From Sulfurisphaera ohwakuensis (GTDB taxonomy: Archaea; Thermoproteota; Thermoprotei_A; Sulfolobales; Sulfolobaceae), in NCBI RefSeq assembly GCF_009729055.1, contig NZ_CP045484.1, positions 1,488,001 to 1,552,000 on the forward strand: a stretch of 64,000 nucleotides of DNA, given 5' to 3'. The translations under genes were made by a program, and so were the position numbers. Under the pieces are notes generated by a model. The model saw only the letters and a list, made by a program, of their open reading frames with translations, was not told where the DNA came from and made no database searches. Shown here piece by piece: positions 56,560 to 64,000 of this stretch; position 1 is the first letter of the stretch, and every line of letters starts with the position of its first letter.

Positions 56560-57357
56560 CTAGCCAAATATTTTTTCTAAGCCTTTTGTCTTTATAAAAT
56601 CGTAAATTTTATCTCCTATTTCAGAATCAAACAACAAAACTTTCACTGGCTTCTCATAATTCAGTAACTCATAAAGTGCGTTGATACCAGTAGATCTCTT
56701 CTCTCCTATTATTAATTCGCCGTTATCTAATTCACCGTCTATAATAGTATAAATTCCTTCAAGATTTTCTCCATATATATAAATTCCGCCAAACTTTATT
56801 ACTGAAATATATTTTTTAGCTTCTTTTATAGCATTAATAGGTGTTCCTTCTATTTTCCCTAAAAACCTCAGATGAAGATGTTGTTGTCTGCTTAATTGCT
56901 GTAAATAAGGGAGTATATGATCTTCAAAAATATGCTCTACGGGTGCATATTCAAACATTTTTTTCTTGCTAAAAAATGATTTAATTCCTTCATCTTTTAC
57001 TTTAATTCTTAAAATAGTATTTTCCCCGTCTTGTTTTATAAAGAAATCTACCTGAGCTGTTATCTCATTTCCATCAGACAGAATATACTCTATTTGGGTA
57101 GAACTTACTAGAGTTTGAGTTACAGAAAGTAGTTTTACTTCAACTTTCTCTTTTTCTGTATCTGGTATATTAAGGTAAGCAACAATATATTTTCCAGATT
57201 TATTCTTAGCTTTCGGTGGTGGTAATAATTCTCCACTTTTATCTTCAGCTAGCAATACTGCAAAGTGTCCAGATATTCCAGCAAGAAATATAATATCTGA
57301 TAAAATATTAAACACTTGTTTAGAGTCGATGTAAAGCGTAAATTCTCTCTCATACAT
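56560..57357 (-). CDS. SRPBCC-like two-domain protein of unknown function
   Basis: 265 aa. The N-terminal about 150 residues (REFTLYIDSKQVFNILSD to a long C-terminal helix with HILPYLQQL) fit a START/SRPBCC lipid-binding-like fold by pattern. The C-terminal 100 residues are an alpha/beta part (KYISVIKFGGIYIYGENLEGIYTI). No exact family recognised. Cotranscribed with htpX, with 3 bases between them. Confidence 0.5.
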   Translation of the reverse strand: MYEREFTLYIDSKQVFNILSDIIFLAGISGHFAVLLAEDKSGELLPPPKAKNKSGKYIVAYLNIPDTEKEKVEVKLLSVTQTLVSSTQIEYILSDGNEITAQVDFFIKQDGENTILRIKVKDEGIKSFFSKKKMFEYAPVEHIFEDHILPYLQQLSRQQHLHLRFLGKIEGTPINAIKEAKKYISVIKFGGIYIYGENLEGIYTIIDGELDNGELIIGEKRSTGINALYELLNYEKPVKVLLFDSEIGDKIYDFIKTKGLEKIFG

Positions 57358-57407
57358 TGAGTTAAATATGATGTAAAAACTAATAATTTCTTTCTTTCGT
57401 TAAAAAT

Positions 57408-58106
57408 TTAGATAAAATAATACGCGTTGTATTCATGCAATATCTCTCCATGATATGGTATCAAGATTCTAAAAGGCAAAGAAAGTAAATAGTTGAAAGA
57501 TCTTAAGGCTTTTTCATAGTCCCAACAGAAAAACTTTATAGGAGGTTTTACTCCGTTAATATTTCTTATAGCATCACCGACTATCAAAACCCCTTCACCC
57601 ATTAATGCTATATGTCCTTTTGTATGTCCAGGGACATGAATTACTCTAAATCCACCCAGTTCTTCTCCACCTTTAAGCTTAACATCAACAGTAGGAATTT
57701 CAACTTTCATATTGTTTATTCTGTCTAATGTCTTTTGTATCTCTACATCACTCACATTATTAAATTCCTTTTTTACATCTTCAAACTTAACTTTTTTCAT
57801 TTCAAACTTCTCTTCTTCATGGGCATAAATTTTAGCTTTTGATTCCCTCTTTATTCTTTCAGCATTTCCAAAATGGTCTGGATGAGCATGAGTAATTATG
57901 ATATCTGAGATGTCTTCTATTGAATAACCCCACGATTTTAAATATTTCTCTAAATCATCATAATTCTCTGGTAGACTCGTATCTACGAGCATTAATCCGC
58001 CACTAGGACCTTTTTCTATTATTACAACATTATGGTTTAGTATTGTTCCAAAGAAATCTGGTTCTAACAACTCTATAATTCTTATCCTATCTGTTATCTT
58101 CACCAT
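57408..58106 (-). CDS. MBL-fold metallo-hydrolase
   Basis: 232 aa from the ATG at 58106. Metal sites: [10 protein letters not shown] (HxHxDH), [17 protein letters not shown] and IPYHGEI, all in the usual order. Glyoxalase II/lactonase-like; substrate unknown. It overlaps the U32 gene by 20 bases and so is cotranscribed with it. Confidence 0.85.
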
Positions 58107-59229
58107 GACTAACAAACCTCGGAATAAGTTCTATTGGTGGTCTAATTTTTTCTTGTTGTTGGAAGAATGGTTTACCATCAATTTTTATTACCTTCTCTGC
58201 AACTATATCACAATATCTACATTCCTCGCATGTCCTTTCCTCGCACCTATTATACTTAAAATAACTCAACCAGTTAGGCGGGAATTGAGTATTATCTACG
58301 TATACTTTCATTAGTATCTCATAGTTTGACGATTCATTAATTCTCCTTAGTGCAGAAGTAGTTGCTCTACCCTGAACATAACTTAAAATATCTAATAAGT
58401 TTCCTTTGTATTCCCTTTCTGAGTAAGCCTTTACAACATTTACTAACCAATCGGTTTTCTTATTCCTTCCAGCAATCTTAAACCTATCAATTCCGATCTC
58501 CTCATAATAATGTAAATCTTCTGGTCTAATCCATCTCATCCTGATAATATTAGCAAAATCATTCCTAACCTCAGTAGCGCAAAACAGAACCGGATATTCA
58601 AACCAAACATTTTTAACTCCATCTTTAGCTGAGAGATAAGAAGTCACCTGGTCATGAGTTAATTTATAGGGACAACTCCATAGACAAGTATTATTTGTAA
58701 TTACTTCAATATCAGCATTATACTTTTTTGCTAACTTTGCAGAAGCCTCCAATAGTGTAAAATTTCTATTTGTATCCTCATCCATGATAACAGTATTTGC
58801 ACCTATTTGTAAGTATTCCTCAACTTTTCTAATGTTAGTTATCCTTGCAAAAGAGGATACAGAAACTTCTATATCTGGATGTTCTTTTCTGATAAAGTAA
58901 ATTAAAAAGGGTAAGGCCACTATAAATCCATCAACACCAAAATTTATTAATTTTTCTATTTCATTTTTTAGCTTATTAAGGAAATGTTCATCATATTCTT
59001 TACCGTGAAGATTTGCAGTATTCATTGTATATAGAAATTTTATCTTATAAGAATGGGCTACAGAAATATGTTCCTTAAGTTTTTCATCGTCAACTTTAGG
59101 TAAAATAAAAGAAGCTCTGCCATGTCCAGTTAACGTCTCTGTTTGACTACCGTAAATATATTTTACCGGATATTTTGAAATTTTCTCTATTAGTCCATTA
59201 TCGAAGTTTGTTGCAATAACTAGTCGCAT
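58087..59229 (-). CDS. Peptidase U32-family protein
   Basis: 380 aa. The TIM-barrel-like part has [16 protein letters not shown] and [16 protein letters not shown]; the cysteine set [14 protein letters not shown] and CRYCD near the C-terminus resembles the 4Fe-4S ligands of UbiU/RlhA relatives, whose members hydroxylate rRNA or quinones. The name peptidase is historical. First gene of the unit U32-MBL, followed after 50 bases by the SRPBCC-htpX pair. Confidence 0.75.
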
Positions 59230-59923
59230 AAAATAATGTAGTAAATGAATAAATTTAAGTTTAGTGTATTTATTATTTATGCGTTATAATCGGAAATAAT
59301 ATATAAGACTTATCACTAAAATAAGAATATCAGTCTAACATTATCAGAAAAGTTCTCTTAGCCTTGATTATCGAAAATTACAAGATTATTTGTGATTATA
59401 TTTAATAAACTGATTTTATATTATCATACTCTTAGTAATTAAGTGAATTTAATTCTAAATAAAGGCATTTTATAACTTTTTACTTTATTTAGTTGTTCAT
59501 ATTAATTACGCATTTGACACTCCCCAGAGATAATGATATATAATCAATTATTTCTTTATAGAATTATTTTAATCTAAAAGAGAATATTACAATTCGCAAA
59601 GGAAACCTGATGCACTTATAGGAAAATCATTGTATTTTTACGTTACGTTAAACATATGTAAGAGATACTGTCTTTATTAACTAAAAATTCCTTGTGATAA
59701 ACTAAATAAAGTAAGGGAGTAAATTCAAAGTATTTATTAATTCACGGGCGAATATTATAATTTTTATGATAAGGAAATTTCCTTAAACTACTAACTTGAC
59801 TCTCCCAGAGAGGCGTGAAAGATCTACTATTATTCATAACATATTATATTACTCATCAGTATTATTATCCTTAATCAGATATTAATCGAAAGATTTTTTA
59901 ATGTGTTTTCTTTCTATTTTATC
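59230..59923. other. Large AT-rich gap
   Basis: About 690 bases without a gene. It holds a perfect 16-base palindrome TAAGGAAATTTCCTTA (59770-59785), and two similar short segments, TTGACACTCCCCAGAGA (59515) and TTGACTCTCCCAGAGAGGCG (59805), which look like worn insertion-sequence ends. Confidence 0.35.
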
Positions 59924-60232
59924 GTGGCTTGTAAGGAATGGAAGATAAGAGTTAATATGAGGAAAGCCAAGAGTTTTAATGAATTAGTAGAATATATCTC
60001 TGACGAGTTTTCTAACGTGAAGATATTAAATATCATTAGGGAGAAGATTAAATTACTCAGAGATAATCCTTTCAAATACGCCAGGGAAAAGTTGGGAAAA
60101 GATAGGTACGGTAATCCGATGTTCTCAATAGAAGTTACTGGGGATATAAGAATACTTTATAGCGTGGATTCAAAAAACTGTATCGTATTTATTTGGGAGA
60201 TTGGCTCTCATAAGAGGATTTACGGGCATTAG
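59924..60232 (+). CDS. RelE/ParE-like toxin candidate
   Basis: 102 aa from GTG 59924 (GTG 59903 and ATG 59957 are alternatives). The end DIRILYSVDSKNCIVFIWEIGSHKRIYG is the RelE-type pattern of C-terminal strands, after two helices and a FKYAREKLGKDRYGN turn. The expected action is ribosome-dependent mRNA cleavage. No antitoxin precedes it; instead a small acidic ORF lies tail to tail, overlapping 44 bases. The antitoxin role of that ORF is inference. Confidence 0.6.
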   Translation: MACKEWKIRVNMRKAKSFNELVEYISDEFSNVKILNIIREKIKLLRDNPFKYAREKLGKDRYGNPMFSIEVTGDIRILYSVDSKNCIVFIWEIGSHKRIYGH

Positions 60233-60338
60233 CCTTTTCCTTAGCTCTCTTTATTACGGCATTGAAAAATTCATCTATATCTTCTTCGCTCTCTAGCTCT
60301 AGGAACCTTTCGCCATTCTTATCTTCAACAATTCTCAT
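60189..60338 (-). CDS. Small acidic protein, possible antitoxin
   Basis: 49 aa from the ATG at 60338: MRIVEDKNGERFLELESEED then a helix (IDEFFNAVIKRAKEKANARK) and a polar tail. The shape (short hairpin, acidic helix) fits a RelB-like or small antitoxin. It is on the opposite strand to the RelE-like gene and overlaps it by 44 bases, an unusual order for a toxin-antitoxin pair. A further upstream ATG adds 17 residues. Confidence 0.45.
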   Translation of the reverse strand: MRIVEDKNGERFLELESEEDIDEFFNAVIKRAKEKANARKSSYESQSPK

Positions 60339-60952
60339 AAGTATAAATTTATCATAAGACATTAAAAAGGATATGGTAATTTTTCTCATTGAATTTTAAG
60401 AAACGGAATCTCTTATATAGCTTCCTTTGATTCCAGCTTTAATAAACTTTTGAAAAATTTAAGTATGGAATTCATATTTTAACATATCGTAAAAGGCGTG
60501 AGTTAGAGAGGATTTTAGTCATTACATTCGGTTATTAGATGAGATATGTCCAATTTCCTTTTCTCACGTGAGAGGCACCACATGCCATGCATCTCACAGA
60601 CCTAAGCTTGCAAAGGAGTAAAAGATCAGCTTTAACTTATGATGCTAAATATTCGAAATTTAGTTAAATCAATAAATATATTTTTTATCGATAAATATTG
60701 TTTTCCCTTCGCACTTACTATGAAAAAGACTATATACTGCTAAAATCAGTTATTTAATCTTACGCTGACGAAATAAATTGAATTCATTAAGGACACATGT
60801 ACGACCTATGTTAATGAAAATAGTGCCGTAATATTATGGGCAGTCAGGATTTAGCTCATAATATTGAGTTCTAAATAGAAGATCTAGTAAACTTGCTTTT
60901 CTCCCTATAAACTAAGTTAAAGCTTTATATCTTAATATTTTAGTTACTAGGC
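60339..60952. other. Gap with repeat copy 2 and a palindrome
   Basis: About 610 bases, no gene. TCTCACGTGAGA (60562-60573) is a perfect 12-base palindrome in a slightly GC-richer patch (60555-60615). The dispersed repeat lies at 60616-60737. TTTATAT at about 60924-60930 is the likely TATA box for the methyltransferase start at 60953. Confidence 0.4.
60616..60737 (+). repeat. Dispersed repeat, copy 2
   Basis: Similar to 48230-48343 over about 115 bases, weakly in the middle, strongly in the last 33 (TTTTCCCTTCGCACTTACTA then TGAAAAAGACTATAT). Shared flank: CAGCTTTA at 60627-60634. Confidence 0.45.
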
Positions 60953-61646
60953 GTGTCTATTAAAGCTTCGGATGAAGAGTTAAGAGAAGTTTATAACCAT
61001 ATTCCATCATCTTATGATAGAGCTAATCGGTATATATCCTTTAATCAAGATATAAAATGGAGAGCGGATCTTGTAAAGACTATCTTAAATTATTGTAAAA
61101 AAACCTAGACTAGTTTTAGACGTAGCAGCAGGAAAAGGAGAGTTGACTTACGTTTTTAAAAAGTTATATAGGGAGAAATTCTTCCCTGTAATAACTGATT
61201 ATGCCGAAAACATGTTGAAACTAGCTATAGTTGAAGATGATAGAGTTCTGGCTTCCTTTGAAGCCTTGCCTTTTAGGGATAATGCTTTTGATATTGTAAT
61301 GAGTAGTTTTGCTTTACATGCATCAGATAATATAGAGACTGTGATTAAAGAAATGAATAGGGTATCAAGAAAGATAATAGGATTTATAGCTATGGGAAAA
61401 CCGGATAATAAATTAAAAAGGATTTATCTAAGTTTTTACTTGAGATTCGTAATGCCTTATATAACGATATTTGCTAAAGGGAAGCCAAAAGATTACAAAT
61501 ATATCTACTATATCTACAGAAGACTTAATACTAACTCATGGTATAAGCAATTATTTTTTAGATTGTTAGATGTTAAGATTTATGAGGAAAAAGCATTGAA
61601 TCTGTTTTACTTTGTAGTTGCTTATAAAAGAGATAATAAGGAGTAA
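60953..61646 (+). pseudogene. UbiE-like SAM methyltransferase, frameshifted at an A7 run
   Basis: GTG 60953 opens a frame ([20 protein letters not shown], then [15 protein letters not shown]) that stops at TAG 61106 because the run at 61097-61103 has seven A. With six A the frame would continue as [20 protein letters not shown] (SAM motif I) through [17 protein letters not shown] to the stop at 61646, giving a full UbiE/COQ5-like protein of about 230 aa. So it is either a recent pseudogene, a sequencing error in a homopolymer, or a recoded gene. A TATA box suits a leaderless GTG start. Confidence 0.75.
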
Positions 61647-61788
61647 ATTTTCAATTTATACTATCTTTACAAATTTTTCGTACTACGACTCTATAGAAAA
61701 TTACTACTAAGATTAAAACCAAAATAAAATTATTTATTAGTTATTTTGAGAACGTTCGATATATATGCTTATATATTTCGTTGTTTTC

Positions 61789-62496
61789 ATGTATGATGTG
61801 GATATTAATAAGATTATTGGTCTAATTACCCACTTACAAAATTTTGGATACATAGATAAGATTGATGACCCCGATCTCCTTAAAACATTAACCTCTTTAA
61901 AACTTGTCGAAATTCGTGATAAAATATATGTGGATAAAAACCTCTACAAATATGATTTCTTAGTCTTAGAATCGAAAATAGAAGTTCGAATTATGAGAGA
62001 ATATTATAGTAGAAGTGAGAAATATACTTTTTTGATTACAAAAGACGGTATAAAAGAACTTAATTTCATTTACGATATAACTCCAGTAACTAAATTTAGG
62101 TTTATAAAACTTAGAAGAAGCAATGAGAAAAACATAGATGCTAAAATTGAGAAAAATAATGACCTAGTCAAATTTAAACTAATTTTTTCTCATCCTACTA
62201 CTTTTGGCGAAATCATAGAATTTACTTACTATATTTACTCTAAAAGCTACATAAATAATAACGTGGAGTATTTTTATATATTATCACCTACTTTCTCTTC
62301 TTCTCTTCGTATCACTACTTTTTCTAGGATAAAATCTGTTGAAGGAGTAAGATTAGTAAAAGGTCCCCTTTCATATCATTTTAAACCACTTGATATAGAA
62401 AACTATCTTATAGAGAAAAAAAGTGAAAATGAAATAGTTTTTAGCGTAAAAAATGTAAATTATGGAATTTATGGAGTCGTGTTAGAGTATGGATAG
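61789..62496 (+). CDS. Unknown protein, first of a two-gene operon
   Basis: 235 aa from ATG 61789 (an earlier ATG adds 8 hydrophobic residues). The first 45 residues look like a winged-helix-type bundle (INKIIGLITHLQNFGYIDKID); the rest is beta-rich and lysine-rich, with KLIFSHPTTFGEIIEFTYYIY in the middle. No family recognised, no membrane helix. It overlaps the next gene by 8 bases. Both share a general layout and may be distant paralogues. Confidence 0.6.
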   Translation: MYDVDINKIIGLITHLQNFGYIDKIDDPDLLKTLTSLKLVEIRDKIYVDKNLYKYDFLVLESKIEVRIMREYYSRSEKYTFLITKDGIKELNFIYDITPVTKFRFIKLRRSNEKNIDAKIEKNNDLVKFKLIFSHPTTFGEIIEFTYYIYSKSYINNNVEYFYILSPTFSSSLRITTFSRIKSVEGVRLVKGPLSYHFKPLDIENYLIEKKSENEIVFSVKNVNYGIYGVVLEYG

Positions 62497-63154
62497 AAAA
62501 GAACTACTTAAATTAATAAATCACTTTAAAAACGTCGAAAGCGGAATAGAAAAATTAAAACCAGAATTACAAGGAAGTAAATATTACCACGTATACGCTG
62601 AAAGGAAAATCAATATTGATAAGGACGGTAATGCAAGAATAGTTAGTGTTAGAGAATTTCTACCAATCTTCAGTGGTATTTCAGAAGAGTATATCTCTTT
62701 TAAACTTGATGAGGTAAAAGGGATATCGTATAGTAAGATCAACTATATAAAAAGAGAGAATTTATTATCTAAAGAAAAGTTAAATGCTGAGGCTGAAATT
62801 CAACAGGATAAAAATCAATTATTAGTTAGGATGAAATTTTTACCGCCACTAAGAGTAGGAGATAAAGTAAGATTAAAATATACTGTGAGAATTAAGGGTT
62901 TTGTCTCAGAGGGAGAAAACATAGATAGTGTGCAAGTCGCATCTTTCACTTATTACCTTAAACTTCTTATATACCTTCCTAAGAGACCTAAGAGAGCTGA
63001 AGTATACAAAGTAACGTTCGGGGATAGTGATATTATTAGTAAAATTCCCCTAGGAATAGACGAAGATTATAATTTTGTTGTTAATGATACAATGATAAAA
63101 TTTGAAATTTATCGTATAGCATTTTCCACTTATTCCGTTATCTGGGAGATTTAG
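62489..63154 (+). CDS. Unknown protein, second of a two-gene operon
   Basis: 221 aa. Begins with a helix (RKELLKLINHFKNVESGIEK) then is beta-rich: FLPPLRVGDKVRLKYTVRI parallels FSHPTTFGEIIEFTYYIY of the upstream protein and the ends (FSTYSVIWEI and YGIYGVVLEY) also match in pattern. No known motif. Cotranslated with the first gene through the 8-base overlap. Located in an accessory area next to insertion-sequence debris. Confidence 0.6.
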   Translation: MDRKELLKLINHFKNVESGIEKLKPELQGSKYYHVYAERKINIDKDGNARIVSVREFLPIFSGISEEYISFKLDEVKGISYSKINYIKRENLLSKEKLNAEAEIQQDKNQLLVRMKFLPPLRVGDKVRLKYTVRIKGFVSEGENIDSVQVASFTYYLKLLIYLPKRPKRAEVYKVTFGDSDIISKIPLGIDEDYNFVVNDTMIKFEIYRIAFSTYSVIWEI

Positions 63155-63536: not shown

Positions 63537-63584
63537 GAGGGAATCGGTATTACCATAAGGGCTCATGGTAATGCCAATTCCCTC
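63537..63584 (+). repeat. Long near-perfect hairpin upstream of the transposase
   Basis: The arms GAGGGAATCGGTATTACCAT (63537-63556) and ATGGTAATGCCAATTCCCTC (63565-63584) are inverted copies with 2 mismatches in 20, around an 8-base loop. It may be an IS end, a terminator that guards the transposase from read-through, or a small inserted element. Confidence 0.6.
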
Positions 63585-63621
63585 ATTAAACACTCAACAA
63601 ATAGGGTATAAATTAATTTCC

Positions 63622-64000
63622 ATGAGTAACTTCCAAGGGAGAAAGGGAGAGGAAGTTACAAAAACCTTGATCTCAGCATCATTACACAAAGATTCAGTGG
63701 AAAACGTTTCCAGAGCTTACAACGTATCACCACAAACGGTGAGGAATTACGTTGAAGAACAAGGGTTACAAGTAGCGGAAAAAACACTGGAACAAGTGAA
63801 ACAAATCTCACTCGAAACACTTAAGGGCGTGAAGGAGATAGAACTATCAATAGATTGGACAACAATAACTTGGTACGGAAAACCTGTAGAAGGTTTGGGA
63901 AGCTCAGAAAAGGGATACTCGTGGAACTACGCAACAGCTACAACGAAATACGAAGGAAAAATCCTCATACTTGCTTTCATACCGCAAGTTAATGGGATGA
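63622..64000 (+). CDS. Transposase, N-terminal part (runs off the window)
   Basis: 126 codons visible from the ATG at 63622: an N-terminal HTH (SVENVSRAYNVSPQTVRNYV, about 25-44) and then KEIELSIDWTTITWYGKPVE, where the Asp would be the first acid of a DDE catalytic triad, and GSSEKGYSWNYATATTKYEG. This layout resembles the archaeal ISH3-type transposases. The rest lies beyond base 64000. The G+C content and codon use are richer than those of neighbours, consistent with a mobile origin. TATAAATT lies at 63607-63614. Confidence 0.7.
   Translation, partial: MSNFQGRKGEEVTKTLISASLHKDSVENVSRAYNVSPQTVRNYVEEQGLQVAEKTLEQVKQISLETLKGVKEIELSIDWTTITWYGKPVEGLGSSEKGYSWNYATATTKYEGKILILAFIPQVNGM

Follow-up and report, generated by a model that had tools for sequence, protein, structure and literature searches.

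A UbiE-like methyltransferase gene of Sulfurisphaera ohwakuensis split at an A7 run, most likely by a recent +1 frameshift

Results

We analyzed a window of 64,000 nucleotides (G000:C1:1488001-1552000, where G000 is the genome of S. ohwakuensis) from a single-contig genome of 2.80 Mb. The locus is chromosomal; the plasmid collection searched gave no match, and neither did an Rfam search of the window. One UbiE-like methyltransferase is encoded here in two halves that lie in different frames, and direct reading of the sequence places the break at a run of seven A's. The features, in window coordinates, are as follows.

60923-60932, + strand: TATA-like box CTTTATATCT, approximately 26 bases 5′ of the GTG start (read from the sequence, function putative)
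60953-61108, + strand: ORF1, the N-terminal part of the UbiE-like (PRK05785-type) methyltransferase, with a GTG start and 51 codons
61097-61103, + strand: A7 run, the frame break (read from the sequence and by comparison with G001, G002, and G003)
61104-61646, + strand: second half in the other frame, with SAM motif I and the remainder of the methyltransferase (PF01209, NF004452)

ORF1 ends at a TAG (61106-61108), and the second frame, open from 61089 after a TAA at 61086-61088, stops at 61644-61646. The residues right after the junction, which we take to be SAM motif I, are encoded in this second frame directly 3′ of the junction, as an earlier note on this DNA had claimed. The earliest common start codon of the second half is a TTG at 61143, 3′ of motif I; an independent gene in the second half was ruled out, because the second frame has no ATG, GTG, or TTG ahead of the motif. 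The TATA-like box, also said to be intact, is indeed kept in the same-genus genomes G002 and, as TTTATATCC, G003, and the methyltransferase mRNA is predicted to be leaderless.

Together, the halves (50 + 180 residues) cover all 230 residues of the protein in the sister genome G002, with none missing. Read separately, they align end to end with the same proteins, and ORF1 is 94 to 96% identical to the G003 and G002 proteins over 50 residues. These alignments bear out the earlier claim that the A7 run splits one UbiE-like methyltransferase, and the intact one-frame orthologues rule out a chance pairing of two ORFs.

Both halves score above the cut-off of Pfam Ubie_methyltran (PF01209; 20.1 bits), ORF1 with 22.1 bits over profile positions 3-42 and the second half with 51.8 bits over positions 51-206. 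The second half alone reaches 283 bits with NF004452/PRK05785, for which the cut-off is 207 and intact orthologues score 358 to 368 bits. UbiE/MenG proper (TIGR01934) was tried and rejected, as the intact orthologues, at 96.8 and 98.5 bits, fall under its cut-off of 158.35. The methyltransferase is UbiE-like (PRK05785/NF004452), not UbiE proper; orthologues in this family are whole, whereas the G000 member is split by one base. A literature search on quinone methylation listed no paper that names this methyltransferase gene.

At 60701-60735 lies a sequence of approximately 35 bases with 19 matches in the genome at an E value of ≤0.01, itself included. Several copies of this dispersed motif share a stretch ending in TTTACTATGAAA, and the motif is clear at some, not all, of the 19 sites. 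A ParE-like toxin gene (PF05016) at 59903-60232 is overlapped by a convergent small ORF (60189-60389), possibly an antitoxin. Two adjoining genes at 61765-63154, encoding 243 and 221 amino acids, have no Pfam or NCBIfam match; the pair adjoins the methyltransferase in G002 and G003 and was not found in the 20 kb around the G001 copy. From 63565 to 64000 the DNA is GC-richer and purine-rich, with an open frame, transposase-like by eye, that runs off the window.

As a check for a pseudogene, the earlier note had proposed looking for a close strain with more disruptions; the opposite was found, the gene being open in one frame of 227 to 243 codons in all three same-genus genomes (G001, G002, and G003). 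At the junction, G003 has A6 and both G001 and G002 have GAAAAA. A DNA search gave matches in 14 of 41 genomes, and a profile search at an E value of ≤1e-20 matched 24 of 31 family genomes; the gene can be lost, given that 7 of the 31 had no match. A split into two halves of one gene occurs in only 2 of the 24, G000 and the draft genome G018 (190 contigs, 87% completeness), where the break lies elsewhere, after motif I. A conserved programmed site was ruled out, as the break is absent from G001, G002, and G003, and G018 is broken at another place. Further copies comprise a second, more distant one in G001 and a tandem partial one in G013. No close paralogue was found in G000 at an E value of ≤1e-20, so loss of the gene would possibly be costly to the cell, which counts against an inactivating mutation.

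To describe selection, we took the halves separately, aligned them to the G002, G003, and G001 genes, and counted the changes private to G000. The 48 codons ahead of the run hold 0 synonymous and 0 nonsynonymous changes, and the 176 codons after it hold 9 synonymous and 0 nonsynonymous changes. Neutral expectation on the G000 branch is approximately 44 nonsynonymous and stop changes versus none seen, with opportunities counted where the other three genomes agree and a transition weight of our choosing. Constraint can have been lacking for no more than about 7% of the branch. This leaves three possibilities: the break is very young, it is bypassed, or it is not real. An old, decayed pseudogene is ruled out by the 9:0 ratio and the lack of any further stop; among the readings listed in the earlier note (slippage or recoding, decay, or sequencing error), long-standing decay thus falls away, and a recent single mutation fits best.

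The reading that the break is not real holds that the gene is intact and ordinary, with A6 in the DNA of the cell, the seventh A being a consensus or assembly error. Purifying selection undiminished in both halves favors it, as does the position of the extra base, since long-read and pyrosequencing errors concentrate in A/T runs. We compared G000 with its sister G002 over 295,911 aligned bases, of which 265,739 lie in ORFs of at least 100 codons; the G000 stretch at 400001-440000 failed to align with the segments chosen from G002 and was left out, and those at 800001 and 2200001 contributed alignments over part of their length. Sixteen indels not divisible by three touch a long ORF in either or both genomes. 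Five (8, 2, 1, 2, and 5 bases) break genes of G002 that are intact in G000, all within the 3.1 kb immediately 5′ of the methyltransferase; five touch ORFs in both genomes; and six lie in an ORF seen in G002 only, one of them being the methyltransferase break. The others of those six are a T5-to-T6 change and a 2-base change in one RelE-like gene, one indel near a C terminus, and two in a spurious extension. The latter, frameshifts at 1565389 and 1565433, were discounted as falling in a spurious N-terminal extension of a protein that aligns whole over residues 17-449.

The genes broken in G002 are whole in the window at 56560-60232 (G000:1544563-1548229) and encode a 265-amino-acid protein, a protein that is metallo-beta-lactamase-like by reading, and the ParE/RelE-like toxin. 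The methyltransferase shows the opposite pattern to these three neighbors, being whole in G002 and broken in G000.

Across the 295,911 aligned bases, the sole other run-length frameshift is the T5-to-T6 change (+1) at G000:2205579, in the RelE-like gene (so assigned by likeness to the window's ParE-like gene), which is open in G002. Among A/T runs of at least 5 in aligned long ORFs, 0 of 1,770 have a gap inside the run, the methyltransferase A7 being scored as substituted in this count because the alignment places its gap next to the run, a base away. Of the 342 such runs that lie elsewhere than in long ORFs, 17 have a gap, one of them in the RelE-like gene. Run lengths evolve mostly where this is harmless, and homopolymers do not seem to be a source of noise in the assembly. 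This contrast speaks against an error, which is less favored because a frequent error source would strike coding runs too. The GeneTack authors, in the excerpted text, expect a singleton validated by BLASTp to reflect a sequencing error, not an indel mutation (PMC3711429), which counts in favor of an error. On balance, an assembly error is a serious rival, somewhat unlikely as it stands.

Reversible slippage between A6 and A7 as a phase-variable on/off switch would draw on the same readiness of run lengths to change outside long ORFs (17/342); the run, however, is short and is absent as such from G001 and G002, and we regard a switch as scarcely credible. Homopolymers were counted in G000 (464 kb) and G002 (620 kb). 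In coding sequence of G000, sense A7 was observed 107 times versus 190.0 expected, A8 7 times versus 58.5, and A9 0 times versus 20.2; A9 and A10 together were seen 0 times in G000 ORFs versus approximately 29 expected. In noncoding DNA of G000, under a second-order model, A7 plus T7 numbered 24 versus 39.3 expected and A8 plus T8 numbered 1 versus 15.1. A/T homopolymers of at least 8 are far scarcer than expected whether the DNA is coding or noncoding, which suggests that run length is capped across the genome. Striking as the coding depletion is, it was not retained as a sign of slippage at A7, since noncoding DNA is depleted to a similar degree; with coding and noncoding depletion alike, the cause is probably mutational and genome-wide.

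Bypass of the break would mean that full-length enzyme is still made from the A7 allele, a pseudo-pseudogene that is perhaps regulatory. It could occur during transcription, if slippage dropped one A or added two, or during translation, if tRNA-Lys slipped +1 between AAA codons on the ribosome while the rare codon ACC occupied the A site. The lack of nonsynonymous changes after the break is in keeping with this reading, and so is the rarity of ACC, at 3.6 per thousand codons. The fold of the RNA 3′ of the junction has a z score of -1.68 when computed at 37°C, with 12 of 200 shuffles equally stable.

Precedents exist in the excerpted literature. During M.HaeIII drift in Escherichia coli, indels in runs of 3 to 8 were bypassed (PMC3812077), and frameshifts at bp 545-551 of Sulfolobus acidocaldarius pyrE are termed leaky (PMC3139894). 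The archaeal precedent is fucA1 of Saccharolobus solfataricus, which encodes an alpha-L-fucosidase and is likewise a chromosomal Sulfolobales enzyme gene split at an A run; its full-length relatives have one A fewer (PMC8211752), as A6 of G003 has compared with the G000 gene. In fucA1, full-length protein was demonstrated; the -1 shift that yields it takes place on an in-phase A-AAA-AAT, and a putative stem-loop and rare CAC codons accompany the site (PMC8211752). The G000 methyltransferase, known from sequence alone, differs in needing a shift of +1 or -2, the wrong direction for the fucA1 type, and in having no in-phase X-XXY-YYZ heptamer (its codons read TGT AAA AAA ACC TAG). In the A9 pseudo-pseudogenes of Baranov et al. 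(2005), the frameshifting indel is likewise in an A run, according to the excerpted text; those runs were extended from 8 A's to a slippery 9 (PMC1088944), whereas the G000 run is A7 and slippage at it hypothetical.

One extra A in the transcript would give TGT AAA AAA AAC CTA GAC TAG, that is, a stop. Transcription indels in A/T runs of E. coli and Buchnera are mostly single insertions, with no frame-restoring case found in the excerpted text (PMC5574713), and the prevailing single-A insertions would therefore reach a stop here. The run is also not conserved in relatives, and A7 is not specifically avoided in coding sequence. For the recoding raised by the earlier note, then, nothing positive emerged. 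We consider bypass in general improbable, and it is very doubtful that RNA polymerase or the ribosome loses one A at the A7 run to give useful amounts of whole methyltransferase.

Discussion

We conclude that the split methyltransferase is an ordinary and most likely recent +1 frameshift. The favored explanation, to which we give a probability of roughly 58%, is a mutation that is real and very recent, in which replication slippage inserted one A (+1) and reduced the product to a stub. The run of the intact gene would have been A6, to which slippage of DNA polymerase would have added one A to give A7. Transcription and initiation should stay unaffected, and the cell would then mainly make an N-terminal stub of 51 residues that lacks the SAM site. 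The second half would yield no active enzyme by ordinary reinitiation, because no ATG, GTG, or TTG lies ahead of motif I. That the extra A is truly in the DNA, arose by replication slippage, and turned the gene off is what we infer from a base read from one assembly.

The disruption itself, its base known from the assembly, is a lone lineage-specific indel in a gene otherwise constrained, as in a recent single-frameshift disruption. A lone homopolymer indel in a recently functional gene is also how a consensus error looks, which weighs against the mutation. Addition of one A to A6 is an expected event, in that +1 and run frameshifts are a leading class in the Sulfolobales mutation spectra, as the excerpted reports describe them. 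In wild-type Sulfolobus islandicus, +1-bp changes made up 24.4% (28) of spontaneous apt mutations, and Dpo4-dependent +1 mutations typically followed A4 or A5 runs (PMC7390963). For pyrE of the S. acidocaldarius control strain DG185, frameshifts made up 0.62 and plus-1 changes 0.40 of mutations, fractions that exclude the leaky frameshifts at bp 545-551 (PMC3139894). Homologues of MutSL are described as absent from Sulfolobus species, and the mutations of S. acidocaldarius prominently include single-nucleotide frameshifts in short runs (PMC4471258). Like the A7 allele on the favored reading, these apt and pyrE mutations are single-base insertions in short mononucleotide runs that inactivate the gene; they were laboratory selected, whereas the G000 A7 was found in a genome assembly.

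If true, loss of one A at the A7 run would explain the unbroken purifying selection. It would then be, to our knowledge and within a nonexhaustive literature search, the first case from the archaea in which a chromosomal frameshift undergoes +1-type bypass. As a recent mutation, the split gene is a clean natural example of a +1 A-run frameshift, which in these archaea is a leading type of spontaneous mutation, and has little significance alone. It offers a ready A7 test case of whether the RNA polymerase or ribosome of a hyperthermophile can skip an extra A.
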